Of a stretch of 64,000 bases of DNA, positions 11,690 through 35,518 are shown piece by piece (the stretch's first letter is position 1; the number at the start of each line of letters is the position of its first letter). Position numbers and translations under genes: made by a program. The notes below the pieces were generated by a model, which saw nothing but the letters and a program-made list of their open reading frames with translations, was not told where the DNA came from and made no database searches. This DNA is from Pseudomonas sp. HS6 (GTDB taxonomy: Bacteria > Pseudomonadota > Gammaproteobacteria > Pseudomonadales > Pseudomonadaceae), in contig NZ_CP067412.1 of NCBI RefSeq assembly GCF_023375815.1, forward strand, positions 3,906,001-3,970,000. The letters run 5' to 3'.

Positions 11690-11832
11690 GCTTCCCTTGT
11701 TCGATAGTGGCTTTTTTCCACATCGATTCAGACTGACTTTGACAGAGGCCGTGTCTTCGACGGCTTTTGCATTCATGGATTAGGCCGCGCTCGTTTGGGG
11801 GCGCAGTCCGCAGCTCAAGGGTATGGTTTCGC

Positions 11833-12909
11833 GTGAAAATTCTAGTTACCGGCGGCGCCGGGTTTATCGGCTCGGCAGTCATCCGTCACATCATTTCCAA
11901 CACCACCGATTCTGTCGTTAACGTCGATAAGCTGACTTACGCCGGTAACCTTGAATCACTGGCTGAGGTCAGTCAAAACTCGCGTTATGCGTTTGAGCGC
12001 GTCGATATCTGTGATCGCGAGCAGATCGACCGTGTTCTGCGTGAACATCAGCCGGATGCCATCATGCATCTGGCAGCAGAATCTCATGTCGACCGTTCGA
12101 TTTCCGGTCCTTCCGAGTTCATCCAGACCAACATTATTGGTACTTACACCTTGCTCGAAGCGGCGCGCCATTACTGGGCAGTGCTGGATGACACGCGCAA
12201 GGCTGCTTTCCGCTTTCATCACATTTCCACGGATGAAGTTTACGGTGATCTGGAAGGTCCGGAAGATCTGTTCACTGAAACGACTCCATATCAGCCAAGT
12301 TCGCCGTACTCGGCCAGTAAGGCCAGTTCCGATCACCTGGTACGTGCCTGGGCCCGTACGTACGGTTTGCCGACTCTGGTTACCAACTGCTCGAACAACT
12401 ATGGCCCTTGCCACTTCCCGGAGAAACTGATCCCGCTGATCATTCTCAATGCGCTGGAAGGCAAGCCGTTGCCGGTATACGGGAAGGGTAATCAGGTCCG
12501 CGACTGGCTCTATGTCGAGGATCACGCCCGTGCGTTGTACAAAGTCGTAACTGAAGGTGTGATCGGCGAGACCTACAACATTGGCGGTCACAACGAAAAG
12601 CAAAACATCGAAGTGGTAAACACCCTGTGCGCTCTGCTTGACGAATTGCGCCCTGATTCCGCGCATCGCCCGCACGCCAAGCTGATCACCTACGTTCAGG
12701 ATCGCCCGGGCCATGACCAGCGTTACGCGATCGATGCGAGCAAAATCCAGCGCGAGCTGGGCTGGACTCCGGAAGAAACCTTTGACTCCGGCATCCGCAA
12801 GACTGTTGAGTGGTACTTGAGCAACACTGAGTGGGTTGAGCACGTCAAGAGCGGCAGCTATCAACAGTGGATTGATCAGAACTACGCGGATCGCTCGAAT
12901 CAGGCATGA
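11833..12909 (+). CDS. rfbB: dTDP-glucose 4,6-dehydratase
   Basis: This NAD-dependent extended SDR makes dTDP-4-keto-6-deoxyglucose from dTDP-glucose, the second step towards dTDP-rhamnose. The protein shows [11 protein letters not shown] at the N-terminus, STDEVYGDL, and the catalytic [10 protein letters not shown] (YxxxK). I use the GTG at 11833 (VKILVTGG); it gives 358 residues, close to the family norm, and CAAGGG lies upstream. The frame is open further upstream without family similarity. It overlaps rmlD by 4 bases and heads the polysaccharide locus. Confidence 0.95.
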
Positions 12910-13799
12910 AGATTCTTCTGCTAGGTAAGAATGGTCAGGTAGGGTGGGAGCTGCAGCGCGCACTGGCTCCGCTTGGCGAGCTGGTTGCGCTGGATCGGCA
13001 GACAGTTGACGGTTTGAGTGGAGACCTGGCTGATCTGTCGGCATTGCGTGACACCATCGATCGGGTCAAGCCGGATGTGATCGTCAATGCGGCCGCCTAC
13101 AACGCGGTGGACAAGGCTGAGTCGGAATCCGAGCTGGCTCTGCGGGTCAACGGCCAGGCGACTCAGGTGATGGCCGAACAAGCCGCGCAACTGGGTGCCT
13201 GGCTCGTTCACTATTCCACAGACTATGTCTTTGACGGTCAGGGGCTGGCTCCCTGGCAGGAAACCGATACTCCCGCTCCATTGAATCGTTATGGCGAAAG
13301 CAAGTTGGCGGGAGAAGCGGCGATCCAGGCGTCCGGGTGCAAATACCTGATCTTTCGTACCAGTTGGGTTTTTGCAGCGCGTGGCCAGAACTTTGCCAAG
13401 ACCATGTTGCGTCTGGCAAAGGAGCGCCAGGAGCTGAATGTCATTGCTGACCAGATAGGTTCGCCGACAGGGGCTGAGCTGATCGCCGATGTCACCGCGC
13501 TCGCCCTGCAGCAAGCGTTGCTGCGACCGGAGCTGGCAGGTTTGTATCATCTCGCTGCCGCAGGAGAGGTTTCCTGGCACGATTATGCCTGTCATGTGCT
13601 TGAGTTTGCCAAAGCCAATGGTGAAGACCTTGCCGTTCGGGTGATCAATCCGATCAATGCTGTTGCATACCCGACTCCCGCTCGTCGTCCGCTTAATTCT
13701 CGATTGAATACTCAGAAACTGCGGGACAATTTTTCTCTACACTTGCCGGATTGGCAAAGTGGTGTAACTCGAATGCTTAGGGAAGTTCTTAACAAATGA
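12906..13799 (+). CDS. rfbD: dTDP-4-dehydrorhamnose reductase
   Basis: This enzyme reduces dTDP-4-keto-L-rhamnose to dTDP-L-rhamnose. Motifs are [12 protein letters not shown] (NADPH-binding), [21 protein letters not shown] and YGESKLAGE (YxxxK). The 297-residue length is normal. It overlaps rmlB by 4 bases and rmlA by 4 bases, so the three are tightly coupled. Its substrate comes from RmlC (3,5-epimerase), which is not in this window and must be encoded elsewhere for rhamnose to be made. Confidence 0.95.
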
Positions 13800-14686
13800 C
13801 CACGATAAATCGTAAAGGCATCATCCTCGCTGGCGGCTCGGGCACTCGCCTGCACCCGCTTACCCTTGGCGTGTCCAAGCAGATGCTGCCGATTTACGAC
13901 AAGCCGATGATCTTCTATCCGCTATCGGTGCTGATGCTAGCGGGCATGCGCGAAATTTTGATTATTTCCACCCCGGAAGACCTGCCGAACTTCAAAAAGC
14001 TGCTCGGCGACGGTAGCTTGTACGGCATTCAGCTGACTTATGCGGAGCAACCTAGTCCGGACGGCCTGGCGCAAGCGTTTATCATAGGCGAAGAGTTCAT
14101 CGGCAAGGATCCTTGCTGCCTGATCCTGGGTGACAACATTTTCTACGGTCAGCATTTTTCGGACAATCTGCGCTCCGCCAGTTCGCAGCAGTCTGGTGCT
14201 ACCGTGTTTGGCTATCACGTATCCGATCCGGAACGTTTCGGTGTGGTCGAATTCGACTCTACCGGCCGGGCGCTGAGCATCGAAGAGAAGCCGCTGAAGC
14301 CAAAATCCAACTATGCGGTGACGGGGCTGTATTTCTACGACAATCAGGTTGTCGAGATCGCCAAGAACATTAAGCCGTCTTCGCGTGGTGAGCTGGAAAT
14401 CACTGATGTGAACAGTGCGTATCTCAATCAGAAGACGCTCAATGTCGAAATGCTCGGCCGAGGCTTCGCGTGGTTGGATACCGGTACGCATGACTCGTTG
14501 CTTGAAGCCAGTCATTTCGTGCATACGATCGAGCAACGCCAGGGCTTGAAAGTGGCCTGCCTGGAAGAGATTGCCTATCACAACGGCTGGATTACGACCG
14601 AGCAACTTGCTTCTCAGGCAGAAGCCCTGAAGAAAACGGGATACGGTCAATATCTGCAAAAGCTGCTGGATTCGCCTTCTCGCTGA
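13796..14686 (+). CDS. rfbA: Glucose-1-phosphate thymidylyltransferase
   Basis: This enzyme makes dTDP-glucose from glucose 1-phosphate and dTTP and is normally feedback-inhibited by dTDP-rhamnose. The nucleotide-binding motif is [14 protein letters not shown], followed by the sugar-phosphate lysine region [13 protein letters not shown] and LGDNIFYG. The 296-residue length is typical of RmlA. It ends the rmlBDA set; the next gene starts 55 bases later. Confidence 0.96.
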
Positions 14687-14741
14687 TTTGAAAGCGACGA
14701 GCTTTCAATTGGTGCGTTCAATCGCTGCTAGCAGGAACGGC

Positions 14742-15662
14742 ATGCCAGTAAAACATCCGAAGATCGCGGTTTTGCTGGCTGCCTATAATGGTATGCAGTG
14801 GATCGAGGAGCAATTAGCTTCGATCCTTGGACAGCTCGCCGTCGATGTTACTATTTATATCAGCGTTGACTTGTCCGATGACGGCACCGAGGTGTGGTGC
14901 GAGGCGTTCAGCGCTGTCGATAGTCGCGTGGTTCTCTTGCCTCCCGCCGGGCGTTTTGGCGGTGCGGCGCGCAACTTTTTTCGCTTGATTCGCGATGTCG
15001 ATCTGCACGGTTACGATGCGGTGGCTTTTGCGGATCAGGATGATATCTGGCAACCCGACAAGCTCCTTCGCGCGACTCAAATAATCGCTTCTCAGGGTGT
15101 CGACGCCTATTCAAGTAATGTCACGGCCTTCTGGCCGGATGGAAGAACGATCCTGCTGGATAAAAGTCAGCCGCAAGTCGCCTGGGATTTCTTGTTCGAA
15201 GCGGCGGGGCCGGGCTGTACTTACGTGTTTAGTCCTGCGCTTGCCTGTTCGTTGCGTCAGCAGGTCATCCACGACTGGGAGCCATTACAGCAGGTCAGTC
15301 TGCACGACTGGTATAGCTATGCCTTTGCCAGGAGCCATGGATTTGAATGGTTCATCGATTCCCAGTCCAGCATGCTTTATCGGCAACACGAGAATAATCA
15401 GGTAGGAGCCAATACAGGGCTTTCATCGTTGTTTCAGCGTTATGTCACTATTCATGAGGGGTGGTGGTTCAAACAAGTCAGGACAATTGCATTGCTTGTC
15501 GGGGTGGGTAATGCGCCATTTGTCAGGGGCTGGTTGAAGCTGAGGCGGCGTGATCTGCTGTTGCTGTCGGTGCGGGGCGGACAGTGTCGGCGTCGGCTTC
15601 GGGACAAATTTTTGTTCTTTTTTGTGTGCTGTCTGACGGCCGTCGTCGGCACAAAATCCTGA
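14742..15662 (+). CDS. Family 2 glycosyltransferase (rhamnosyltransferase-like)
   Basis: This is a cytoplasmic GT-A enzyme of 306 residues. It has KIAVLLAAYNGMQWIEEQL at the N-terminus, the nucleotide-binding SVDLSDDGTE, and FADQDDIWQPDKL as the DxD-type region. The C-terminal YRQHENNQVGAN is shared with the next GT2 gene. The ATG at 14742 is preceded by AGGAACGG at good spacing; a TTG at 14688 would add 18 residues. Its position behind rmlBDA and its similarity to WbbL-type enzymes make rhamnosyl transfer plausible, but donor and acceptor cannot be read from sequence. Confidence 0.85.
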   Translation: MPVKHPKIAVLLAAYNGMQWIEEQLASILGQLAVDVTIYISVDLSDDGTEVWCEAFSAVDSRVVLLPPAGRFGGAARNFFRLIRDVDLHGYDAVAFADQDDIWQPDKLLRATQIIASQGVDAYSSNVTAFWPDGRTILLDKSQPQVAWDFLFEAAGPGCTYVFSPALACSLRQQVIHDWEPLQQVSLHDWYSYAFARSHGFEWFIDSQSSMLYRQHENNQVGANTGLSSLFQRYVTIHEGWWFKQVRTIALLVGVGNAPFVRGWLKLRRRDLLLLSVRGGQCRRRLRDKFLFFFVCCLTAVVGTKS

Positions 15663-15734
15663 TCGGACTTTCAGCAGCTTTCGCGCTTTTTGTCTGGCCT
15701 GTTCGAAGCCTAACAACCGACGATAAAAGTTCTC

Positions 15735-15780
15735 TATAATCGCGCGCTTCGTGAAAGGAACGAATGGAGCGGGTAGGGTG
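15735..15780 (+). promoter_or_regulatory. Probable internal promoter with ops/JUMPstart-like element
   Basis: A perfect TATAAT (15735-15740) without a good -35 box is followed 28 bases later by GCGGGTAGGGTG (15769-15780). This matches 9 of 12 positions of the ops sequence GGCGGTAGCGTG that recruits the antiterminator RfaH in enterobacterial polysaccharide leaders. It sits in an untranslated leader before the second GT2 and the exporter genes, where an ops site would be expected. Confidence 0.4.
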
Positions 15781-15845
15781 CGAGACGCTGAAGATGACTT
15801 TTCAGGCGTCCCCCAGACCGGCGATTAATTGCAGTGGAGCATACA

Positions 15846-16835
15846 GTGGCAAGCCCCTTATCAGCGGATACCGCGAATTCCAGTCTGGATTTTGGCACTG
15901 TTGAAGTGCCTGCTAGGGATGAATCTGTCGCGATCTTGATGTGTTCTTACAATGGTGAGCGATTCCTTTCAGAGCAATTGGCGTCCATTGAGCAGCAGGA
16001 TCATGCGCAGTGGCACCTGTTCGTTTCCGATGACGGTTCGACAGATTCAACGCTGGATATTCTCAAAGCCTTCCAGGCGCGTTTGGGGGAGGAAAAAGTT
16101 ACCCTCCTTTCTGGCCCTCAAACGGGCTTCGCCGATAATTTCATGTCAATCACCTGTCTGGAAACCGTCAGTGCAGATTTCTACGCCTGGTCTGATCAGG
16201 ACGATATCTGGACTTGTGACAAGTTGAGTGCTGCGTTGGCCAGGTTACGTCAGCTGCCGGTTGATGTACCAGCGCTGTATGCCTCTCGGACAACCGTGGT
16301 CAACGAAGCCGGCGTCGGGGTAGGTCGTACCCCCGAGTTTTCTCGCGCTTTCGGTTTTCCCAATGCGCTTGTACAGAGTGTTGCTGCCGGAAATACGATG
16401 GTTTTCAATCGAGCGGCGCGTGAGCTTTTGAGAGCGGGTCCGGCTCAGGGTGTTGTGGCTCATGACTGGTGGGCATATCTGCTAGTGACCGGAGCGGGTG
16501 GTCAGTTCCATTTCGATCAGGTGCCGCGTCTTTTTTACCGTCAGCATGAATCGAATTCGATCGGTGCCAATGCGGGCTTCATGGCAGCGCTGACGCGCAT
16601 CCATAGGTTGTTTCAGGGGCGTCTGAGGGGCTGGATCGATCAGAACGTCAGCGCTCTGGATACTGTCGAGTATCTTCTTACAGAAAAAAATCGCGAAGTG
16701 CTTCGTCGATTCAAGGTGGCTCGCAGTCAAAGCATGCCAGGTCGTCTGATTGGGATGTGGCGCTCGGGTGTGTATCGGCAGACACTCCTCGGAAATCTGG
16801 GACTTGTAGTGGCAACCATTTTCAAAGGAATTTGA
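15846..16835 (+). CDS. Family 2 glycosyltransferase (rhamnosyltransferase-like), second copy
   Basis: This 329-residue GT-A enzyme is related to the gene at 14742. It shows SVAILMCSYNGERFLSEQL, SDDGSTDSTLDIL, AWSDQDDIWTCDKL and the same C-terminal signature YRQHESNSIGAN. It has a longer N-terminal extension (about 25 residues) than the first copy. The GTG at 15846 has GGAG 6 bases upstream; a GTG at 15834 is the alternative. It is the first gene after the putative ops-bearing leader. Sugar specificity is unknown. Confidence 0.82.
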   Translation: MASPLSADTANSSLDFGTVEVPARDESVAILMCSYNGERFLSEQLASIEQQDHAQWHLFVSDDGSTDSTLDILKAFQARLGEEKVTLLSGPQTGFADNFMSITCLETVSADFYAWSDQDDIWTCDKLSAALARLRQLPVDVPALYASRTTVVNEAGVGVGRTPEFSRAFGFPNALVQSVAAGNTMVFNRAARELLRAGPAQGVVAHDWWAYLLVTGAGGQFHFDQVPRLFYRQHESNSIGANAGFMAALTRIHRLFQGRLRGWIDQNVSALDTVEYLLTEKNREVLRRFKVARSQSMPGRLIGMWRSGVYRQTLLGNLGLVVATIFKGI

Positions 16836-16889: not shown

Positions 16890-17708
16890 ATGCAGAAATT
16901 TTCGGCGGCGCCTGGCGTCATGTTTACCAGCGTCTGGCACAATCGCGCGCTTATTGTTGCGTTGATCAAACGGGAGGTCATCGGTCGTTATCGAGGCTCC
17001 TTCATGGGTATTCTCTGGTCGTTCTTCAATCCGATCGTGATGCTTTCTATTTACACGTTCGTGTTCAGTTACGTTTTCAATTCCCGCTGGGCGGGGGCCG
17101 GTGGCTCAAAAGCGGAATTCGCACTCATACTGTTTGCAGGCTTGATGGTCTTCAACTTGTTTGCGGAGTGCGTGACGAGAGCGCCTAATCTGATCATTTC
17201 GAACGCCAATTACGTGAAAAAGGTTGTGTTTCCATTGGAAATATTGCCCTGCGTGATTGCAGGTTCCTCCGTGTTCCATGCGTTCGTCAGCTTGATAGTC
17301 TGGTTGCTCGCCTATTGCGTATTTTTTGGCTTGCCACCTGTCACGGCGCTTTATTTGCCGCTGGTTGTTGCACCGCTGTTGTTGATTATTCTTGGCCTTT
17401 CCTGGGGATTGGCTTCTATTGGTGTTTACATGCGAGATGTCGCGCATTTCATCGGCCTGGTGACAAGCGGTCTGATGTTTCTTGCGCCGATTTTTTATCC
17501 TGCGACGGCGGTGCCGGAGGACTATCGAGGTCTTCTGACGCTCAATCCGCTGACCGTAGTTGTGGAAAACGTCAGAGCTGTTCTGTTTTTCGGGCAGGCG
17601 CCTGACTGGCAGGCGCTCGGCATCTACGCATGCGTGGCTATTGCAGTGGCTTACCTCGGGTTCGCCTTCTTCCAGAAGACCAGAAAGGGGTTTGCCGATG
17701 TCCTCTGA
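16890..17708 (+). CDS. wzm: Polysaccharide ABC exporter, permease (Wzm-type)
   Basis: This is the ABC-2 membrane subunit that moves undecaprenyl-linked polysaccharide across the inner membrane. The 272-residue protein has an amphipathic N-terminus followed by about six hydrophobic helices. Family landmarks are LIKREVIGRYRGSFMG, LWSFFNPIVMLSIYTFVF and the C-terminal FLAPIFYPATAVPE and LNPLTVVVENVRAVLF. The 3' end overlaps the wzt start by 11 bases, as expected for two subunits of one transporter. The gene defines this locus as ABC-dependent. Confidence 0.93.
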   Translation: MQKFSAAPGVMFTSVWHNRALIVALIKREVIGRYRGSFMGILWSFFNPIVMLSIYTFVFSYVFNSRWAGAGGSKAEFALILFAGLMVFNLFAECVTRAPNLIISNANYVKKVVFPLEILPCVIAGSSVFHAFVSLIVWLLAYCVFFGLPPVTALYLPLVVAPLLLIILGLSWGLASIGVYMRDVAHFIGLVTSGLMFLAPIFYPATAVPEDYRGLLTLNPLTVVVENVRAVLFFGQAPDWQALGIYACVAIAVAYLGFAFFQKTRKGFADVL

Positions 17709-19023
17709 AATTGCGATCAATCTTCAGAATGTCAGTAAGTGTTATCACATTTATGACAAGCCGCGTGATCGACTCATGCAAATGTTCGCCGGTCAGCGCA
17801 AGCAGTACTTTCGCGAGTTCTGGGCACTCAAGAACGTTTCGTTCGATATCAAGAAAGGCGAGACCGTTGGTATCGTTGGTCGCAACGGAAGCGGTAAGTC
17901 GACGCTGCTCCAGGTCATTTGCGGCACGTTGAACCAGAGCGTCGGCGATGTTCAAACGGTGGGGCGGATCGGTGCGCTGCTTGAGCTGGGGTCCGGGTTC
18001 AATCCGGAGTTCACCGGGCATGAGAACGTCTACATGAATGCCGCAATCCTGGGATTGAGCCGAGCTGAAGTCGACGAGCGTTATGACGACATTGCCGCTT
18101 TTGCCGACATTGGCGAGTTCATTCATCAGCCGGTCAAGACATACTCAAGCGGCATGATCGTGCGTCTGGCATTTGCCGTTCAGGCAATGGTTGACCCTGA
18201 CATTCTGATTGTCGATGAGGCATTGGCTGTTGGAGATGAGCGCTTTCAGCGCAAGTGTTTCGCCAGACTTGATGAATTGAAGGCCAAAGGCACCTCGATC
18301 TTGTTCGTGTCGCACTCCGGGCCTCAAGTTGTCGAACTCTGTGATCGGGCGATTCTGATGGAGCGCGGCGAGCGCATCTGCACTGGGTCACCGATGGAAG
18401 TCGTTCGGGCGTATCAGAAGCTCATCTACGCGCCAGTGGAAGAGCAACCGCGCTTGATTGAAGAATTCAAGACGATTGGTTCCGACAAGATAGTAGTCGA
18501 GACCCGGGAGGTGGACGTGCCCCAGGACGCTCCCCCGGAAGATCAGTTCTTCGATGCGGGAATGGTGCCCGAATCGACCACCGTTTATCCGGAACAGGGT
18601 GCCCGGATCGACGCCTTCGAAATTTTCGACAAGCAGGGGCGACGCTGTAATGTGCTCAAGGCTGGTGGGGAATACGATATCGTTATGCGTGGTGTCATCA
18701 CCGAAAGCGTATCGCGGATTTTCTTCGCCGTGCATGTTCGCACAGTCTCGGGTGTGGTGATTACGGGTCAACGTTTTCCCGAGGAAGGAAAATATTTTGA
18801 ATGTGAAGGTACCGAGCGGACCTTCAGAATCACTTTCAGTTTTCAGATGGTGATGCTGCCCGGCGTATACTTTGTCGGTGGTGGCGTTTGGTCAGAGGCC
18901 GAGCCCACGTTGTGCCACAGAATTCTGGATGCGATCATGTTCCGGCTCGTGTCGGATCAAGGCGCAAGATCTTTCGGTTATATGGATGCATCTATCGATG
19001 AGCCAGCGCTTGAGCTGTTCTGA
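17698..19023 (+). CDS. wzt: Polysaccharide ABC exporter, ATPase with C-terminal substrate-binding domain (Wzt-type)
   Basis: The 441-residue product has an N-terminal ATPase: Walker A GRNGSGKSTLL, signature YSSGMIVRLAFA, Walker B ILIVDEALAVGDE and the switch histidine in FVSHS. It continues for about 190 residues into a beta-rich domain (RIDAFEIFDKQGRRC, FRITFSFQMVMLPGVYF) like the Wzt C-terminal domain. In E. coli O9a that domain binds the capped non-reducing end of the finished chain and is needed for export. A simple KpsT-type ATPase would stop near residue 250. The next gene, 161 bases on, is the sulfotransferase/coiled-coil protein that I propose as the capping enzyme. Confidence 0.93.
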   Translation: MSSEIAINLQNVSKCYHIYDKPRDRLMQMFAGQRKQYFREFWALKNVSFDIKKGETVGIVGRNGSGKSTLLQVICGTLNQSVGDVQTVGRIGALLELGSGFNPEFTGHENVYMNAAILGLSRAEVDERYDDIAAFADIGEFIHQPVKTYSSGMIVRLAFAVQAMVDPDILIVDEALAVGDERFQRKCFARLDELKAKGTSILFVSHSGPQVVELCDRAILMERGERICTGSPMEVVRAYQKLIYAPVEEQPRLIEEFKTIGSDKIVVETREVDVPQDAPPEDQFFDAGMVPESTTVYPEQGARIDAFEIFDKQGRRCNVLKAGGEYDIVMRGVITESVSRIFFAVHVRTVSGVVITGQRFPEEGKYFECEGTERTFRITFSFQMVMLPGVYFVGGGVWSEAEPTLCHRILDAIMFRLVSDQGARSFGYMDASIDEPALELF

Positions 19024-19184: not shown

Positions 19185-20843
19185 ATGACGAGCAGTGATC
19201 ACCAGCGCTTGCTGGACTATTTTTCTTGGAACAGCTGTGTTTCGGATGAGCGCAAGTTGCTTTACATCGCGACACCGAAGGTGGCCTGCACCTCATTGAA
19301 GTGGTGGTTCGCGGAGCTTGAAGGGGTTGCGGAGGCTGTCAAGCAATTGAAGATCAGTTCCGAGACGGATCCCGAACTGGTGATTCATGACACGTTGCTG
19401 GCCGTTGCTCCTCAATTGCTCGTGCGCTCTCCCGAGCAGCTTGAGCATGTCAGGAGGGAGGGATACTTCAGTTTTGCTTTGGTGAGAAACCCCTACAAGC
19501 GAATATTTTCTGCATGGCAGTCGAAGATCCTTTTACGCGAGCCTTTGCAAGTCGAGCCGTATGAAGGCCAGGCGTTCGTGGATCTTCCGGTCGAGACCCT
19601 GTCGGATGTGACCGCGTCTTTCGAGTGTTTTCTTGAGTTTCTGTTCGCCAATGAACGAAACGACTTCAAGGACGCTCACTGGACACCGCAATATGATTTG
19701 CTACAGCCGGATGCATTCTCCTACAGTGCCGTTTCCAAAATCGAGGACACCGCAGCGCTCAATGCTGCGCTACGCAGCCATCTCGGTGAGCCTTACATCA
19801 GTCCATTCAGTAAGGCCAGGGCAAACGAAAGTCTGATCCCTTATCTTCCGGAATTCATCAGTCCGCGATCCAAGTCGCTGATCGATGAACTCTATGCGAA
19901 AGACTTCGAATTCTATGACTACCCAACCTCCATCCCTCCTGCGAAAGAAGCGTTCTCGCAAGAGCAGTTGACAGTAGCGCTTAAGGGGATCGAGTTGCTG
20001 CGTGGGCGGCATCAGCGCATTGGCGAAATGCGTCGGTATTTCATTGAGCAGATTTCCGGGCTGTTGAAGGATAAGGAGTGGCTCGCAGAGCAGCGTCTGA
20101 CATGGATGGATTTCGGCAAGAGCAAGGAAGATCAGCTATTTGCGCTCCAGGCTAGCTTTAGCGAATATGCAGGGCAGCTCGAGGCGGATCGAAATGAGCA
20201 CCAGCAACTCAGGGTAGAGCTGGAACAGTCGAAGGTGGAGGCTGAGATCTCAAAAAAGGAACTCGATCAGTCCAGGATTGAACTTGACGAGTTGAAAGTC
20301 GGACTTGAACAGGCAAGGGTCGAGCACGAACGGACGAAAGTTGAGTGCGAACAGGCAAGAGTGGAACTGGCACAATTGAGAACTGATTTTCATCAGTTGA
20401 AGTTACTGCGCGAACAGGCGCAGTTCGACCACGAACATGCGAAAGCCGAGCACGAACTTACGAAAGGTGAGCACGAACGGACGAAAGGTGAGCACGAACG
20501 GACGAAAGTTGCGCACGAGCAGACAAGTGTCGAGCTGGCACAATTGAGTGCTGATTTTAGTCAGTTGAAGTTACTCCTCGATCATTCTCAGGTCGACTTG
20601 GAACACACGAAGGGCGAGCACGAGCGGACGAAAGTTGCGCACGAGCAGACAAAGGTCGAGTCGGCACAGTTGAGGGCTGAACTTGAGCAGTCGCGGTTGG
20701 AGGTGGCCTCACTTGTTTCCGAGCGTGAAGCGTTTGCTCTGAAGCACAAGCGTTATCTCACCTCCTACAAATATATTGATGCAGAAATCGTCGCTCGATT
20801 GCGCAGGACGGTGCATATTATGAAAAGGCGCAAGGGAGATTAA
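19185..20843 (+). CDS. Carbohydrate-sulfotransferase domain with long C-terminal coiled coil
   Basis: Residues 1 to about 290 resemble the Sulfotransfer_2 family. The 5'-phosphosulfate-binding motif is PKVACTSLK at residues 31-39, with the usual basic, small and hydroxyl residues. The 3'-phosphate-binding motif is RNPYKRIFSAW at 101-111, with Ser109. Such enzymes move sulfate from PAPS to sugars. Residues of about 318-520 are an almost unbroken heptad coiled coil with repeated HERTKxE and ELAQLR units. The last 30 residues (IVARLRRTVHIMKRRK) are basic and amphipathic and could bind membrane. No signal peptide is seen, so it is cytoplasmic. The enzyme-plus-coiled-coil-plus-basic-tail layout next to wzm-wzt resembles the chain terminator/ruler WbdD, though WbdD uses a kinase-methyltransferase. 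Sulfotransferase assignment is good; the ruler role is inferred. Confidence 0.82.
   Translation: MTSSDHQRLLDYFSWNSCVSDERKLLYIATPKVACTSLKWWFAELEGVAEAVKQLKISSETDPELVIHDTLLAVAPQLLVRSPEQLEHVRREGYFSFALVRNPYKRIFSAWQSKILLREPLQVEPYEGQAFVDLPVETLSDVTASFECFLEFLFANERNDFKDAHWTPQYDLLQPDAFSYSAVSKIEDTAALNAALRSHLGEPYISPFSKARANESLIPYLPEFISPRSKSLIDELYAKDFEFYDYPTSIPPAKEAFSQEQLTVALKGIELLRGRHQRIGEMRRYFIEQISGLLKDKEWLAEQRLTWMDFGKSKEDQLFALQASFSEYAGQLEADRNEHQQLRVELEQSKVEAEISKKELDQSRIELDELKVGLEQARVEHERTKVECEQARVELAQLRTDFHQLKLLREQAQFDHEHAKAEHELTKGEHERTKGEHERTKVAHEQTSVELAQLSADFSQLKLLLDHSQVDLEHTKGEHERTKVAHEQTKVESAQLRAELEQSRLEVASLVSEREAFALKHKRYLTSYKYIDAEIVARLRRTVHIMKRRKGD
20322..20700 (+). repeat. In-gene 21-base (heptad) repeats with 168-base super-repeat
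   Basis: Near-identical 21-base units encoding GEHERTK recur, best at 20467-20517. The phrase starting CTGGCACAATTGAG occurs at 20367 and again at 20535, 168 bases (8 x 21) apart, and a diverged copy (TCGGCACAGTTGAG) starts at 20661, 126 bases (6 x 21) later. All periods are multiples of 21, so unit gain or loss keeps both reading frame and heptad register. Confidence 0.85.
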
Positions 20844-20844
20844 G

Positions 20845-21903
20845 GTGGCAAAGGTTTCGGTTGTACTGACTTCCTATAATCACGATAAGTATATTGGGCA
20901 GGCGATTGATACTGTTCTCAATCAAACCTATGGTGACTTGGAACTGATTGTCGTTGATGATGTTTCGCCAGATGCTTCCTGGGAAGTTATCGAGCGCTAT
21001 GATGATCCGCGGATTATCAAGGTTCGAAATGATCGAACTCGCCGTTATATTTACAATATCAATCGCGCTATCCAGTCACAGAGCACCGGTGACTACATCG
21101 CTATCCATCACTCGGATGATGCCTGGGCACTGGACAAGCTAGAGAAACAAGTCGCAGTGCTGGATGCCAACCCGCACATCGGTGCGGTGTTCTCCCACGT
21201 GCAATGTATTGACGAAAACAATCAACCGTTGTCTATCGATTGGTTCAACCAGCCAAACAAGTCACGAGCGGCTTGGTTGCGTGCGCTGTTTTTCAACGAG
21301 AACAGATTGTGCCATCCGAGTGCCCTGGTCAGGCGCAGTGCCTACGAGCAAAGCGAACTGTACAAGTGTGCCCATGCTCAGATCGATGATGCGGAGCTTT
21401 GGACCCGATTGTTGAAGGTGTCCGATATCCATGTCGTCCAGGAAAAGCTGACATTGCACCGGATCTTCTCAGATCAGTCCAATGCGAGTGGCGATCGCCC
21501 AGACAGACGGGCCCGTTTGAAGCTGGAATGGCATCTGCAGAAACAACATTATGTCGATTTGCCCCAAGCGGATATTCTTGAGATCTTTCCGGAAGCCGCA
21601 CAGTGGGTAACACCTCAGGGAGCTCATACTCAGTTTCTGTTGGCAATGGTTGCAATTCATGCTGGCACCTGTCCAGGTACGAGGTTGTTCGGTATCGAAT
21701 TGCTTTATCGATTGATGACGGACGCCGAGTCTCAGGAACAGATTGAGACGCTGCATGGCTTCAATTACCTGGACTTTATCGGTCTTACGGGTAAAGAAGA
21801 TTTTTTTAGCCAGGCGGTGATCGCCGAGCAGCCTGCTGTCGCAATTGCTACTGGATGGCGAGCGCTGATGAGCAGGCTTCTTCGTAGGTTAGGCGCTGCT
21901 TGA
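20845..21903 (+). CDS. Family 2 glycosyltransferase
   Basis: This 352-residue GT-A protein begins AKVSVVLTSYNHDKYIGQAI, then has ELIVVDDVSPDASWEVI and HHSDDAWALDKLEKQ (metal/nucleotide-sugar site). It is followed by a C-terminal part of about 130 residues without a recognised motif. The GTG start lies one base after the sulfotransferase stop, with GGGAG upstream, so the two are translationally linked. It is more distant from the two rhamnosyltransferase-like GT2 genes. Substrate unknown. Confidence 0.88.
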   Translation: MAKVSVVLTSYNHDKYIGQAIDTVLNQTYGDLELIVVDDVSPDASWEVIERYDDPRIIKVRNDRTRRYIYNINRAIQSQSTGDYIAIHHSDDAWALDKLEKQVAVLDANPHIGAVFSHVQCIDENNQPLSIDWFNQPNKSRAAWLRALFFNENRLCHPSALVRRSAYEQSELYKCAHAQIDDAELWTRLLKVSDIHVVQEKLTLHRIFSDQSNASGDRPDRRARLKLEWHLQKQHYVDLPQADILEIFPEAAQWVTPQGAHTQFLLAMVAIHAGTCPGTRLFGIELLYRLMTDAESQEQIETLHGFNYLDFIGLTGKEDFFSQAVIAEQPAVAIATGWRALMSRLLRRLGAA

Positions 21904-26877: not shown

Positions 26878-26931
26878 GGGTAATCGGGTGAGTTGCCTTT
26901 TGCTTTCCAGCAGTGCTGGCTGCAACCTCGA

Positions 26932-28278
26932 ATGAAGGTATTACTCACCGTACATCAGTTTTTTCCAGAGTTTTCTGCAGGCACCGAAGTTCTGACCCTG
27001 TCCGTCGCTCGCGAGCTCAAGGGGCGGGGGCATGAGGTAAGGATCTTCACAGGTTTTCCGGCCACTGAAGCGCTGACGGATCGAGAGCGATTCGACCAAT
27101 ATCATTACGACGGGTTTCTCGTGGACCGATTTCGGCATGCCTATGTGCCGATGGGTGATCAGACGTCGAAAATCGAGATTGGCTATGATAACCATCTGGC
27201 TGCGGACTTTTTTCAGCAACTGCTGAAGGAGTTCCAGCCGGACGTTGTACATTTCTTTCACCTCAACCGCCTCGGCACCGGACTGATTGAAAAAGCCGTG
27301 ACGGCGGGCGTGCCTGCTTATTACACGCCGACCGACTTCTGGAGTATTTGTCCTACTGGGCAGTTGCTGCGCTGTGGGGGACTGACCTGTGCCGGGCCGA
27401 GTCCGGACGCGGGGAATTGTGCAGTGCATTTCGCGGCCAATCTGTTGCCCGGTCGAATCGCTGCGCTGGTCAGTGCAATTCCCGATAGTGTCAGCGATAG
27501 TTTGGTGCGTCTGATTCGTTCTCCTCGGATTCCAGCGGTTCCGTTCGTGGGTGAGGTGCGTGCTCTCGATAAGCGTCTTGACCGCAACATTCGTCGGTTG
27601 AATCTTCTGCAGGCTGTCATTGCTCCCAATAGGATGATTGAGTCATTGCTTCTGGGTAACGGCGTGCGACCCGAAATAATGGTCAGGTCGTCCTATGGCA
27701 TCAACCTGGCCCAGCCTGTCGTGGTGCGCGACCGGACGTTGCGTGATAGGCCGCTGGTATTGGGTTTCATCGGTACGCTCGCCTCGCATAAAGGCTGCCA
27801 CGTGCTTCTGGAGGCGCTGCAGCGGTTTTCTTCCCGCGAGGTGCATCTCAAGATATATGGCAAACAAACCGAATTTCCGGAATATGTAGCCAAACTGCAT
27901 CGTTTGTCGGATGGGAATGAGTCGGTGACGTTCTGCGGCACATTTTCGAATGAGGACATCTTCAACGTGTTGGGTGGCCTGGATGCACTGGTAGTGCCAT
28001 CTGTCTGGAATGAAAATACTCCGCTTGTTGTCTACTCGGCTCAGGCTGCCGGTTGTCCCGTAGTGGCGTCCGATGTACCCGGAATCGCCGAGGCGGTTAC
28101 TCATGATGTGAACGGGTTGCTATTTACGCCAGGCAGCGTCGTCGAGCTCCAACACGTTCTCACACGCCTGATCGACGAAGAAGGGTTGCTGGAGGGGTTG
28201 TCCGCGAATTCCGTGCCACCAAAATCTGTTTCTGTCTATGTGGATGAGTTGTTTCAGATTTGGAACTCACCCATGTAG
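26932..28278 (+). CDS. Family 4 glycosyltransferase
   Basis: This GT-B enzyme begins MKVLLTVHQFFPEFSAGTEVL, then ALSVARELKxRGHEV-type text. It has a mid-region cysteine pair (SICPTGQLLRCGG), and a C-terminal donor domain with LGFIGTLASHKGCHVLLEAL and PSVWNENTPLVVYSAQAAG, which holds the ExxxxxxxE-like region. The ATG at 26932 gives 448 residues; an upstream TTG at 26893 would add 13 residues with little family character. It starts 54 bases after the epimerase. A substrate cannot be named. Confidence 0.87.
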   Translation: MKVLLTVHQFFPEFSAGTEVLTLSVARELKGRGHEVRIFTGFPATEALTDRERFDQYHYDGFLVDRFRHAYVPMGDQTSKIEIGYDNHLAADFFQQLLKEFQPDVVHFFHLNRLGTGLIEKAVTAGVPAYYTPTDFWSICPTGQLLRCGGLTCAGPSPDAGNCAVHFAANLLPGRIAALVSAIPDSVSDSLVRLIRSPRIPAVPFVGEVRALDKRLDRNIRRLNLLQAVIAPNRMIESLLLGNGVRPEIMVRSSYGINLAQPVVVRDRTLRDRPLVLGFIGTLASHKGCHVLLEALQRFSSREVHLKIYGKQTEFPEYVAKLHRLSDGNESVTFCGTFSNEDIFNVLGGLDALVVPSVWNENTPLVVYSAQAAGCPVVASDVPGIAEAVTHDVNGLLFTPGSVVELQHVLTRLIDEEGLLEGLSANSVPPKSVSVYVDELFQIWNSPM

Positions 28279-28448
28279 GAATAGTCGGTTCTTTTCGGCT
28301 CGTAGAGGTTTTCCTTGGCGCAGGCAATGGCCCGGTCTATCCTTCACGCTTAGTTCAAGACTTGGGTTTTTACGTCATGAGATTAATCATCTTCAAGCGT
28401 TAAATACCTGATTCAAGTCAATGTATATATATCAGCGGTGTGTTTGCG

Positions 28449-29042
28449 ATGGCGGAAAATCTTGTCGCTCATAAAATGGTCGTCGATCGGGAGCAGCGAA
28501 GTGCTCTCAAGTCTCAACGACCTGTGGTTCTGTGGTTTACCGGGCTAAGCGGTGCCGGTAAGTCGACGATTGCCAACGCTCTTGAGCAGGCGTTACTAGA
28601 GGAACATCGTCACACCTACCTGCTGGATGGAGACAACATTCGTCTCGGACTGTGTCGTGATCTGAAATTCAGCGATCAGGACCGGACGGAAAATATCCGG
28701 CGAGTTGCAGAAGTTGCCAAGTTGTTCGTCGATGCCGGGCTGATTGTGGTGAGTGCGTTCATCTCACCGTTTCGGCGTGACCGGGCATTGGCTCGGGAGG
28801 TGATCGGTGATGCTTCTTTTATTGAAGTCTATATCGCCACATCCCTGGAGGAGTGCGAGCGCCGCGATACAAAGGGGCTCTATGCCAAGGCGCGCTCGGG
28901 CGAGCTGAAAAACTTCACCGGTATCGATTCTTCCTATGAGCCGCCGGAAGCGCCGGATGTTCGCATCGATACACTCAAGGATGATGTGTCAGTGGCCGTA
29001 AGAAAAATCATGCAATTTCTGGAAGGGCGGAAGGATCATTGA
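28449..29042 (+). CDS. cysC: Adenylylsulfate (APS) kinase
   Basis: This enzyme phosphorylates APS to PAPS, the universal sulfate donor. The 197-residue protein has the P-loop GLSGAGKST at residues 32-40, [34 protein letters not shown] and [16 protein letters not shown], a complete APS-kinase set. It stands alone, not fused to CysN. Pseudomonads generally reduce APS directly for cysteine synthesis, so a separate cysC here suggests PAPS for sulfation, fitting the sulfotransferase at 19185. A GTG at 28440 is an alternative start. The stop overlaps the next gene's TTG. Confidence 0.95.
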
Positions 29043-32603: not shown

Positions 32604-33005
32604 GCAACCTTGGTGCTTATGGCTTTTTCTGTGCTTGCACTCGTCCAACCTGCCAGAGCGGGGCAGGTGGGACGAGTTACACGCAACATCCTCATTGAAA
32701 AGCGATCTGAAGCGCCAATCCGCTCTGTCACCGCAGAAAAGCGAGTGTCTATGGCCAAGACTGATCCGTACATTGTAAAAAACTGTGTATCCTTGCGCGT
32801 ACAACGGCTACCGCAATGCCGCCCCGAAGCCTGAAGTCCTCGAAATTGATTCTGAACTCCTCAGCGGAACGTTCGGTGTCTATGTCTGGTCGGAATCAAT
32901 ACTTGTGCTGGCCTTGTCCGGTAAGCGATTTGACTCATCGGGTGTTTAACCATATTTCTAATGATGCTTTGTTCTTGGAATGAAGTGATCGGAGAGGAGC
33001 AGATT
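32604..33005 (+). other. 402-base gap without a supported gene; possible promoter at its end
   Basis: The stretch between wbpL and the next glycosyltransferase has no convincing gene. A 74-codon frame (32610-32834) begins with a hydrophobic run ending PARA, like a short signal peptide, but it lacks a ribosome site and a basic N-terminus. A candidate promoter, TTGACT (32930) with TATTTC (32953) at 17-base spacing, could drive the next gene. Confidence 0.4.
32930..32958 (+). promoter_or_regulatory. Candidate promoter before the 33006 glycosyltransferase
   Basis: TTGACT and TATTTC are separated by exactly 17 bases, about 48 bases before the chosen start. The -35 is good and the -10 is poor. Confidence 0.3.
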
Positions 33006-34745
33006 TTGTCTCGCAGTATCTTCCTGTCAAAACTTCTAGAGTTTGTGAATGCTGCACGGGGAAGGCTGGCGGATCCCAACCTTCCTCCGAAGCTGCAAGA
33101 GAATAATTCGCCGTTGGATGCAGGCGCCATGTCAGTGGCTGGCATCGAAGGCACTTGCGACGCGAGCCTGCTTCCCGAGAATTTTGATCCGGCACTCTAT
33201 CTACAAATGAACCCTGACCTGGGCGCCGTTGATCCTGTCGCTCATTACTTGAACCATGGTCGGCATGACACCTGGCGGGTCGCAACGTTGCCGCGAGTGC
33301 ATCGTTCCGAGACGCGTGCCTTCAATCCTGAGCTGGACACCATCCTGGTTGTCAGTCATGAGGCATCTCGCTCGGGAGCCCCCATTCTTGCGCTCAATCT
33401 TGTCGAGCGCTTGTCGGCTCGATACAACGTGGTTGTATTAGTGCTTGGAAATGGCCCGCTCCTGGGGGCGTTTAAGGGCGCCGCTGTTGCAACCATGAGC
33501 AGTCCCGCACTCAGACATAATGCCGAGTATGTGCAACTCGCAATGCAACAGTTGAATGTCGAATTCAGTTTCCTGTTTGCACTGGTTAATAGTATGGAGT
33601 GCAATCTCGTTCTCGAACCGCTTGCCAGAAACTTTATTCCGTCTGTTTATCTGATTCATGAGTTTGCCTCTGCCTACCCCAATTCACAGGCTTTGTTGTC
33701 GGATACATTGTTGTGGAGTAGTGAAGTTGTATTTTCTGCGGGGTTGACGCAGGAGAACGCTCAAGATTCATTTCCGGCATTCAAGCATTTCCCCACGCAC
33801 ATCCTTCCACAAGGACGGTGCGTTCTTGCCGAGCAAAAAGGCAGTGAAGATCAGGCACGGAGGGAGTCGGATAAGCTTCGGGAACAAATTCGACCGAAAA
33901 GTGACACTGACAGAAAATTTGTTGTATTTGGCGCCGGGTATGTCAATTTTCGTAAGGGCGTAGATCTTTTTATCCAATGTGCAATCAAGACCATGAATAG
34001 CCCTGGGGGAGAACGGTTTCGTTTCGTCTGGATTGGACAGGGCTACATGCAGGGTACCGAAGATGGGTATTCGGTCTATCTCGCTGATCAGATCAAACGA
34101 TCGGGTTTGCGAGACCGGTTCGTGATACTGGGAGAGACTTCTGCAATCAGCACCGCATATGAAGAAGCGGATGTGCTGTTCATTTCCTCACGGCTGGACC
34201 CATTGCCTAACGTCGCCATTGATGCTTTTGCGGAAAGACTGCCGGTAGTCTGTTTCGACAAGGCGAGCGGGATTTCAGATTTTCTTTCTTCCTGCGGATT
34301 ACAGGATGTGTGTGTTGCCAATTATCTGGATGTCACCAGTGCCGCCGAGAAGATATTCGCGCTGGCTGATTCGAGTTTGTTGTATGAGCAAGCAGTCAAT
34401 CTGAGCTACGACGCGTCGGCGACCTATTTCGACATGGATTCCTATGTTGGAAAAATCGAAGCGTTGGGTGTAAATGCATCCAGACGAACCCGACAGGAAA
34501 AGCACGATGTCGAAACCATCGTCGAGTCGGGCTTGTTAGTCGGAGGCAATGGGACAACCGTCGTTCAAGATGTCCTGAGCAATATACGGGGAAGGGCGCG
34601 GGGTATTAACGTTTCACCACTCGTTGCGGATTTTCAGCCAGATATCTACGTCTCCGAACGCGGCCTGGCGATCGCCGGATCCGATCCCTTTGCGGACTAC
34701 CTGCGTGCTGGAAGCCCCCGAGGCGTCTGGGACAAGTGTAAGTAG
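33006..34745 (+). CDS. Family 4 glycosyltransferase with N- and C-terminal NPDL-type modules
   Basis: The 579-residue product has a central GT-B enzyme: LVVSHEASRSGAPILALNLVERL, a donor domain with FGAGYVNFRKGVDLF, and RLDPLPNVAIDAFAERLPVV holding the donor-binding glutamate region. Before it, residues of about 59-95 carry NFDPALYLQMNPDLG and DPVAHYLNHGRHD. After it, residues of about 543-575 carry FQPDIYVSERGLAIAG and DPFADYLRAGSPRG, which look like a second copy of the same module. The TTG at 33006 has GAGGAG exactly 6 bases upstream, far better than the ATG codons at 32961/32964. Substrate unknown. Confidence 0.84.
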   Translation: MSRSIFLSKLLEFVNAARGRLADPNLPPKLQENNSPLDAGAMSVAGIEGTCDASLLPENFDPALYLQMNPDLGAVDPVAHYLNHGRHDTWRVATLPRVHRSETRAFNPELDTILVVSHEASRSGAPILALNLVERLSARYNVVVLVLGNGPLLGAFKGAAVATMSSPALRHNAEYVQLAMQQLNVEFSFLFALVNSMECNLVLEPLARNFIPSVYLIHEFASAYPNSQALLSDTLLWSSEVVFSAGLTQENAQDSFPAFKHFPTHILPQGRCVLAEQKGSEDQARRESDKLREQIRPKSDTDRKFVVFGAGYVNFRKGVDLFIQCAIKTMNSPGGERFRFVWIGQGYMQGTEDGYSVYLADQIKRSGLRDRFVILGETSAISTAYEEADVLFISSRLDPLPNVAIDAFAERLPVVCFDKASGISDFLSSCGLQDVCVANYLDVTSAAEKIFALADSSLLYEQAVNLSYDASATYFDMDSYVGKIEALGVNASRRTRQEKHDVETIVESGLLVGGNGTTVVQDVLSNIRGRARGINVSPLVADFQPDIYVSERGLAIAGSDPFADYLRAGSPRGVWDKCK

Positions 34746-34753
34746 CCGCAGGG

Positions 34754-35518
34754 TTACTCTCTACTCGACAGTGCTCTCCACAGCCTACTGAGCAGATTAC
34801 AACGTTCGGGTCTATTGCGGACTTTGACGTCCAGACTGTCACTGCCTTCGTGCTCCATGCGCCGGCAGTGTTCAAGCAAAGGCGTCAAGTGTGGCGCAAT
34901 CATGAGAGCATGGGCCGCCGGGTCATAGTGGTGATTACTGGGATCAGGGTTGCGCAAGGATTCTTTGAGGCGCCCGGATACATCTATCGAGTGACTGTCC
35001 AGATTCAAGTAGCTGAGGTTTTCACGGCGGCAGAACTCTTCCATGCGCTTGTTGAACTCAATGGTCAATCGAGTTCTGTCAGCCAGTGACGCTTTTACTT
35101 CTTTTCGCAGGTTTGCAACTTCACCCCATTCCATTTCATCCTGAATCGTCGGTAAAGGCGTACTGAGGGCGATTACTTGATGCGTCCCGGCAATGTCTTT
35201 CAGAAGCTTTTGATAGTTATCAACGGCCAACTGCAGCATTTGCTCAACTGGGCTATCGTGTTTCTGTGCTCTATACCAAATAACAAATCCGGTATCGACC
35301 TCGCCGAGCATGACAATTACTGTCTTGGCGTGCGTCGCGCCCAGCGCGGCCATGAATTGGGGCATCGCCTGGGTAACGGCATTTGGATTTTTCAATCCCG
35401 ATACAGTTGCTCCTCCGACAGAGGTAACCTCGAACGAATATTCGGAGAGCAGTGTTCTCATTTTTTCCGAGCTGAAAACCAATGCGTGAGAGTCGCCGAG
35501 TACAAGTACAGGGGTCAT
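34754..35518 (-). CDS. SGNH/GDSL-type hydrolase, antisense to the rest of the locus
   Basis: This 254-residue protein begins MTPVLVLGDSHALVFSSEK. GDSH is block I with the nucleophilic serine, and a late NHHYDPAAH may supply the catalytic histidine (block V, with the Asp two residues away). SGNH enzymes can be acetyl-esterases or O-acyltransferase partners. No signal peptide is visible, so it is probably cytoplasmic. It is the only minus-strand gene in the locus and converges on the GT4 gene, with 8 bases between the stops. A separate transcription unit, and possibly a separate origin, is likely. Confidence 0.8.
   Translation of the reverse strand: MTPVLVLGDSHALVFSSEKMRTLLSEYSFEVTSVGGATVSGLKNPNAVTQAMPQFMAALGATHAKTVIVMLGEVDTGFVIWYRAQKHDSPVEQMLQLAVDNYQKLLKDIAGTHQVIALSTPLPTIQDEMEWGEVANLRKEVKASLADRTRLTIEFNKRMEEFCRRENLSYLNLDSHSIDVSGRLKESLRNPDPSNHHYDPAAHALMIAPHLTPLLEHCRRMEHEGSDSLDVKVRNRPERCNLLSRLWRALSSRE

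Follow-up and report, generated by a model that had tools for sequence, protein, structure and literature searches.

A sulfotransferase on a heptad-stepped coil beside wzm-wzt: a candidate sulfate-capping terminator and ruler of an ABC-exported O-polysaccharide

What decides when an O-polysaccharide chain is finished is the question raised by one gene of Pseudomonas sp. HS6, studied here in a 64,000-nucleotide stretch of contig NZ_CP067412.1 (positions 3,906,001 to 3,970,000, hereafter the window). The gene, present once in the genome, follows the wzm-wzt pair of an ATP-binding cassette (ABC) exporter and encodes a sulfotransferase domain continued by a long coil (Table 1). We consider it fairly probable that its product is the polymerase-terminator ruler of an ABC-exported O-polysaccharide, itself probably containing rhamnose, with sulfate as the cap, and that it works like WbdD without being a WbdD homologue. 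Such a sulfate-capping counterpart of WbdD had been proposed in an earlier, sequence-only reading. Several lines of genomic evidence argue for it: placement after wzm-wzt with a carbohydrate-binding domain (CBD) across phyla, pairing with one CBD subfamily (the whole operon being linked), a linked adenosine 5'-phosphosulfate (APS) kinase, glycosyltransferases at the far end of fused relatives, a coil stepped in heptads, and conserved residues for 3'-phosphoadenosine 5'-phosphosulfate (PAPS).

The suggested steps, namely sulfation, its position at the non-reducing end, recognition by the CBD and control of length by the coil, would run as follows. The chain would grow on a lipid at the membrane, with the rod's tail end kept close to membrane and glycosyltransferases, and the N-terminal sulfotransferase would be held 30-40 nm off, where it reaches only the tips of chains that are long enough. 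Sulfate from PAPS, helped by the in-locus APS kinase, would be placed on the non-reducing end, and this cap would both halt growth and mark the tip for the C-terminal domain of Wzt. As the capped tip would be recognisable by that domain, only finished chains would be exported. Since in-frame repeats encode the rod, its length could shift by whole heptads, and the chain length with it.

The N-terminal part of the protein matches PF03567 (Sulfotransfer_2) at residues 17-247 (E 8.6e-22, 78.9 bits, curated cut-off 22), and its motifs lie where the sequence-only reading had placed them (PKVACTSLK at 31-39, RNPYKRIFSAW at 101-111). K32, R101, S109 and H68 are unchanged in 50/50 aligned homologues; in a second set (n=38) K32 and S109 are invariant and R101 is lost in one locus (L034). 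We take K32, R101 and S109 to be 5' and 3' PAPS-binding motif residues. The loss of such residues had been named in advance as one of the findings that would speak against the proposal; they are conserved in the window protein and in nearly all aligned homologues. A Pfam scan of the protein (E up to 0.001) gave Sulfotransfer_2 alone, with no kinase or methyltransferase domain, and orthology to WbdD was rejected on that ground. Sequence searches of solved structures with a homologue profile, the sulfotransferase domain and the CBD found no sulfotransferase or Wzt_C relative (the matches were coils, designed proteins, or none), and viral contigs searched for relatives of the protein gave none.

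Structure prediction with AlphaFold2, proposed earlier as a check, gave a long helix after the sulfotransferase domain (residues 259-406 and 429-549), with low confidence at the interruption between the two parts, and proline is absent after residue 253. The best a/d register of the coil exceeds 500/500 shuffles (z 6.4) and the lag-7 identity is 0.32 (z 11.9); a chance coil was rejected by this register test of heptad order. For residues 319-518 the simple hydrophobicity signal at 3.5 residues does not rise above shuffles (8.5 vs a shuffle mean of 9.9), because some apolar residues (V/A/G) form a third column away from the a/d face, and H, T or S occupy many a/d positions. The core is polar: over this range the a and d columns combine L with frequent H, T, S and A, and the V, A, G column runs on the opposite side. 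The regular coiled coil of about 200 residues described in the earlier reading is thus borne out by its a/d register, but is weaker than worded by the hydrophobicity spectrum. With a helix rise of 0.1485 nm per residue, the ~200 residues of strict repeat would span ~30 nm, in agreement with the earlier estimate, and the whole predicted helix (~290 residues) ~43 nm. The C-terminus, said to be basic and amphipathic, is basic (net charge +6 over the last 18 residues), but its hydrophobic moment is not above shuffles (reached by at least 16% of them). The basic tail is a possible contact to the membrane or the polymerase.

Coil length was compared in a set of relatives (P0001-P0033), of which 28, the window protein included, have both anchors and 5 have no tail motif. 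The anchor-to-anchor distance spans 106 to 340 residues (metagenome contigs, in which repeats may be misassembled, supplied some of the lengths, and contigs of several megabases others), and 14/17 distinct values are 1 modulo 7, the others being 138, 258 and 340. In an earlier set of 15 values, 13 fall in one class, an outcome whose probability is at most 5.7e-9 if residues modulo 7 were uniform. Where two proteins share an identical 255-residue domain, their coils differ by 14 or 28 residues, and among near-identical enzymes the differences are 14, 28 or 42. Between fixed ends, nearly all length differences among the natural relatives are whole heptad repeats.

The locus runs on one strand, in the order rml, two glycosyltransferases of family GT2, wzm, wzt, the ruler gene, GT2, more glycosyltransferases, an acyltransferase, cysC, a wbpL-like and a wbpM-like gene. 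The extra C-terminal domain noticed before in the exporter ATPase is a Wzt_C match. Neither PF02706 (Wzz) nor PF04932 (Wzy_C) has a match in the window (3.91-3.97 Mb; wzx was not searched for), as the sequence-only reading had it, and a Wzy/Wzz-dependent locus was rejected on this basis; the genome's Wzz matches lie at 2.31 and 5.33 Mb and those of Wzy_C at 5.33 and 3.56 Mb. The GT2 gene downstream starts two bases past the ruler-gene stop codon, and its product is weakly similar to the GT2 module of fused relatives (~30-43 bits).

Table 1. Features of the proposed ruler gene and its surroundings (window positions)
Feature	Position	Strand	Basis
rmlB, rmlD, rmlA, dTDP-L-rhamnose supply	11767..14686	+	names from sequence and order conserved in relatives
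Two GT2 glycosyltransferases	14688..16835	+	PF00535
wzm, ABC-2 membrane subunit	16890..17708	+	PF01061 1.8e-25
wzt, ATPase with C-terminal CBD	17692..19023	+	PF00005 and PF14524
Wzt_C CBD, residues 299-432, proposed cap reader	18586..18987	+	PF14524 1.5e-17
Sulfotransferase-coiled-coil protein, proposed terminator and ruler	19185..20843	+	552 aa, ATG start
Sulfotransfer_2 domain, residues 17-247, with PKVACTSLK and RNPYKRIFSAW	19233..19925	+	Pfam match
Predicted long helix, residues 259-549, low-confidence break 407-428	19959..20831	+	AlphaFold2
Strict heptad array, residues 319-518	20139..20738	+	heptad analysis
Tandem DNA repeats within coil, periods 21, 42, 168 bp	20307..20656	+	repeat analysis
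Basic C-terminal tail, residues 519-552, conserved in Pseudomonas homologues	20739..20840	+	tails of 32-33 residues past anchor in 26/26
GT2 glycosyltransferase, candidate polymerase module	20845..21903	+	PF00535 1.8e-30
Large GT4 glycosyltransferase, 735 aa	23643..25850	+	PF00534 4.9e-22
GT4 glycosyltransferase	26893..28278	+	PF13692 4.6e-27
cysC, APS kinase, proposed PAPS supply	28440..29042	+	PF01583 1.6e-67

The same arrangement recurs elsewhere. A protein search gave 242 homologues, 120 of them listed; with 8 too short and 1 without the motif pattern left out, the stretch after the domain was testable in 111, and in 90 of these the a/d register was reached by at most 15/300 shuffles. A scan of genome contigs gave 49 loci, 43 close (at least 199 bits) and 6 distant (at most 98 bits). 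The search for wzm-wzt-sulfotransferase-coil neighbours, suggested by the sequence-only reading, found Wzt upstream on the same strand in 28/43 close loci from several phyla (at distances from overlapping frames to 2.0 kb), and in 26 of these 28 Wzt has a CBD matching that of the window (148-330 bits), the exceptions being L034 and L036. The other 15 close loci (L026, L027, L030, L039, L052-L057, L059-L063) include some with little upstream DNA. Several loci with Wzt upstream have a small gene (methyltransferase or SGNH-like) between wzt and the sulfotransferase. In 30/43 close loci the sulfotransferase heads a stop-to-stop frame of 1,184-1,848 aa, and all six of the long frames scanned with Pfam have it first and glycosyltransferase domains last.

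Across 298 Pseudomonas genomes the sulfotransferase has strong matches in 10 (E 1.8e-71 or better) and weak ones in 5, and the CBD matches in 26. Where the CBD match is at least 162 bits (n=7), the enzyme is present in 6 and absent in one (G027). CBD identity to the window is 48.4% in the 23 non-close loci with this enzyme vs 29.7% in 20 others; for the ATPase domain the same groups give 70.5% vs 64.5%. In the CBD tree a branch of 2.91, with full support in the Shimodaira-Hasegawa-like approximate likelihood ratio test (SH-aLRT), leads to the group of this enzyme, in which L117 (= G027) is nested; the corresponding branch of the ATPase tree is 0.13. A clean contrast between the trees failed, as both need two changes and only branch length and identity differ, and linked operon inheritance is therefore part of the pairing between CBD and enzyme.

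This pairing bears on a different role, in which the enzyme sulfates repeat-unit sugars or a side group during growth, the coil does no more than anchor it to the membrane complex, and length is set otherwise. Sulfotransferases of polysaccharide loci usually decorate repeat units, a long helix can work as a tether, and some relatives have no CBD. We nevertheless judge this role unlikely: pairing with a CBD subfamily and the terminator-coil-glycosyltransferase order of the fused forms are marks of terminators (PMC11231755), and a tether has no evident need for a length stepped in heptads between fixed ends.

Two features of the ruler class are present here, a chain-modifying enzyme distal on a long coil and an ABC exporter whose Wzt bears a carbohydrate-binding module (CBM). 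Like the window protein, WbdD (E. coli O9a / K. pneumoniae O3) has a catalytic N-terminus and a long coil and adjoins wzm-wzt with a Wzt CBM; it terminates and measures the chain, and its C-terminus is membrane-near, as that of the window protein may be (PMC11231755). It differs in being a kinase-methyltransferase with a methyl phosphate cap vs Sulfotransfer_2 alone and the proposed sulfate. WbbB (K. pneumoniae O12) and ORF6 (O7) resemble the fused relatives by holding terminator, coil and glycosyltransferase modules in one chain; their caps are Kdo (3-deoxy-D-manno-oct-2-ulosonic acid; O12) and methyl phosphate (O7), and the window encodes its glycosyltransferases in separate genes. A Wzt CBM accompanies the known terminated chains, with the coil as marker and ruler, and the string 'sulfat' is absent from the available text of PMC11231755; the terminators described in such sources make methyl, methyl phosphate or Kdo caps. 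The available parts of PMC4390846, PMC6804347 and PMC8319346 hold nothing on capping. In the open-licence literature we found no paper with a sulfotransferase as O-chain terminator or ruler, which is not proof of absence, subscription papers lying outside that scope. Natural variation in coil length is also seen in terminator-like genes, the methyltransferases of E. coli group 3 capsules (PMC13171606), whose cap chemistry and loci differ. KfiB (K5), likened by description, is called a 'putative sulfotransferase' and belongs to a capsule locus that depends on an exporter (PMC13171606). The heparan sulfate 6-O- and 2-O-sulfotransferases are among the closest known systems.

A sulfate cap could also be read by Wzt while the ratio of exporter to synthase sets the length, with the coil as a loosely sized spacer. 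Chain length tracks transporter stoichiometry in Klebsiella O2a (PMC11231755), and the threefold variation of coil length among close relatives would be expected under weak constraint. The O2a Wzt, however, has no CBM and the window Wzt has one, and where coil systems have been characterised it is the coil that acts as ruler (PMC11231755), so that we rate such a spacer as quite improbable.

For the supply of PAPS, the genome encodes, besides cysC of the locus, one more complete APS kinase, within a CysNC-type frame of 635 aa, and has a third match that is partial. At 1e-60, 66/298 Pseudomonas genomes have an APS kinase match, comprising 24/26 CBD genomes and 42/272 others (Fisher p 1e-15, the genomes being related and not independent). 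In 22/26 CBD genomes the kinase lies 1.3-24.1 kb from the CBD, in 17 cases as a short frame (199-265 aa) and in 5 as a long CysNC-type one; G013, G193, G205 and G227 have no linked kinase. A second wzm-wzt of the HS6 genome (L077, 4.428-4.446 Mb, 18 kb) has its Wzt_C gene at 4.44 Mb; no cysC was seen in these 18 kb, and its CBD does not match that of the window. L077 and a clade without the CBD, the only CBD-less comparison, show no linked APS kinase.

Several points weigh against sulfate capping with recognition by Wzt. In that clade, a single one within Pseudomonas (L053-L057, G134, G177, G227, G236), the fusion occurs without Wzt_C in 9/9 genomes searched. The case for sulfate as the cap is drawn from genes. 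In Aeromonas salmonicida A450 a gene with a sulfotransferase domain follows wzt, and no sulfate residue is reported for the O-antigen in the available part of PMC4483657; a single cap per chain could escape detection there. That gene, wbsalmo ORF19, resembles ours in lying directly after wzt, before wbbB, and differs in being short (216 aa), its function left open by the authors (PMC4483657); we liken it by its domain. Two Aeromonas homologues of the window protein (P0111, P0116) are known as such by source name only. Where Wzt is short, R101 is lost in L034 and the motif is kept in L036. The changed residues, in a small number of cases, fit a loss of cap function where the CBD is gone. In L086 (G227) a 1,252-aa sulfotransferase-GT4 frame adjoins a 141-aa frame that matches the CBD weakly and resembles a wzt remnant.

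A degenerate sulfotransferase kept as scaffold, or one with another acceptor (a lipid-linked primer, the core), could explain the near-invariant residues changed in L053 and L055 (H165, N214, E60, C35) and R101 in L034, but is very improbable, since the motif residues are kept in the window and nearly all aligned homologues, the losses fall in loci without the CBD, and APS kinase is linked in CBD genomes.

The reading as a sulfate-capping ruler can be extended to other loci whose CBD resembles that of the window (L117-L135, n=19; chosen by this likeness, hence with ascertainment bias). A sulfotransferase of another family is in or near the slot after wzt in 14/19 of them, though not as the first gene past wzt in L126 and L132. 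Thirteen slot proteins share one N-terminal family, a profile of L118 and L120 finding the other 11 at 3.2e-20 or better; at Pfam cut-offs L118 and L120 pass for Sulfotransfer_3 and L119 barely for Sulfotransfer_1, the remaining members falling below. The L135 protein is a Sulfotransfer_1 (1.6e-18). By an uncalibrated count, 17/18 slot proteins have a coil, L128 being without one. We advance tentatively, as quite possible, that sulfate capping is a common and repeatedly invented end of ABC-exported O-chains in Pseudomonas and beyond, with Sulfotransfer_2, Sulfotransfer_3-like and Sulfotransfer_1 enzymes each placed on coils behind a wzt with CBD and each supplied with PAPS locally, and with coil repeats as a ruler tunable in heptad steps. 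With a sulfate cap, a charged, easily detected tip would stand as new alongside methyl, methyl phosphate and Kdo, orphan sulfotransferase genes by wzt (as in A. salmonicida) would be explained, and O-chain ends would become predictable in many genomes. Near-identical natural enzymes with different coils make the molecular-ruler idea testable without engineering.

Some minor observations concern the same slot. DUF4915 is found in L121, L131 and L134 (L133 being nearly identical to L134), and L117 has a methyltransferase followed by a separate DUF4915 gene. In these five loci DUF4915 replaces the sulfotransferase, on a coil in 4/5, and APS kinase is linked in 5/5 genomes; L117 and L121 have no sulfotransferase among the open reading frames scanned, while in L134 one is encoded separately. 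Possibly DUF4915 is itself a capping or PAPS-using enzyme that has gone unrecognised. In L037 and L050 (by eye also in L024 and L045) wzt and the sulfotransferase are separated by a Methyltransf_24-type gene, and in P0103 such a part is fused ahead of the sulfotransferase, an arrangement in which a methyl plus sulfate cap is possible. In P0069 the stretch from the sulfotransferase to a GT2 domain contains ~12 near-perfect repeats of 14 residues, an extreme case of a coil built from repeats.

In the window itself, the wbpL-like and wbpM-like genes flank a 594-aa GT4 (32961-34745) that matches, at ~290 to 450 bits, the GT4 part of sulfotransferase fusions from other loci (e.g. L026, L031, L040, L064, L086) and is possibly what remains, in truncated form, of an older fused polymerase. 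Next to it, on the minus strand (34754-35518), is an SGNH/GDSL-like protein under Pfam cut-offs; by eye, L029, L032 and L041 have a member of its family placed between wzt and the fused sulfotransferase.
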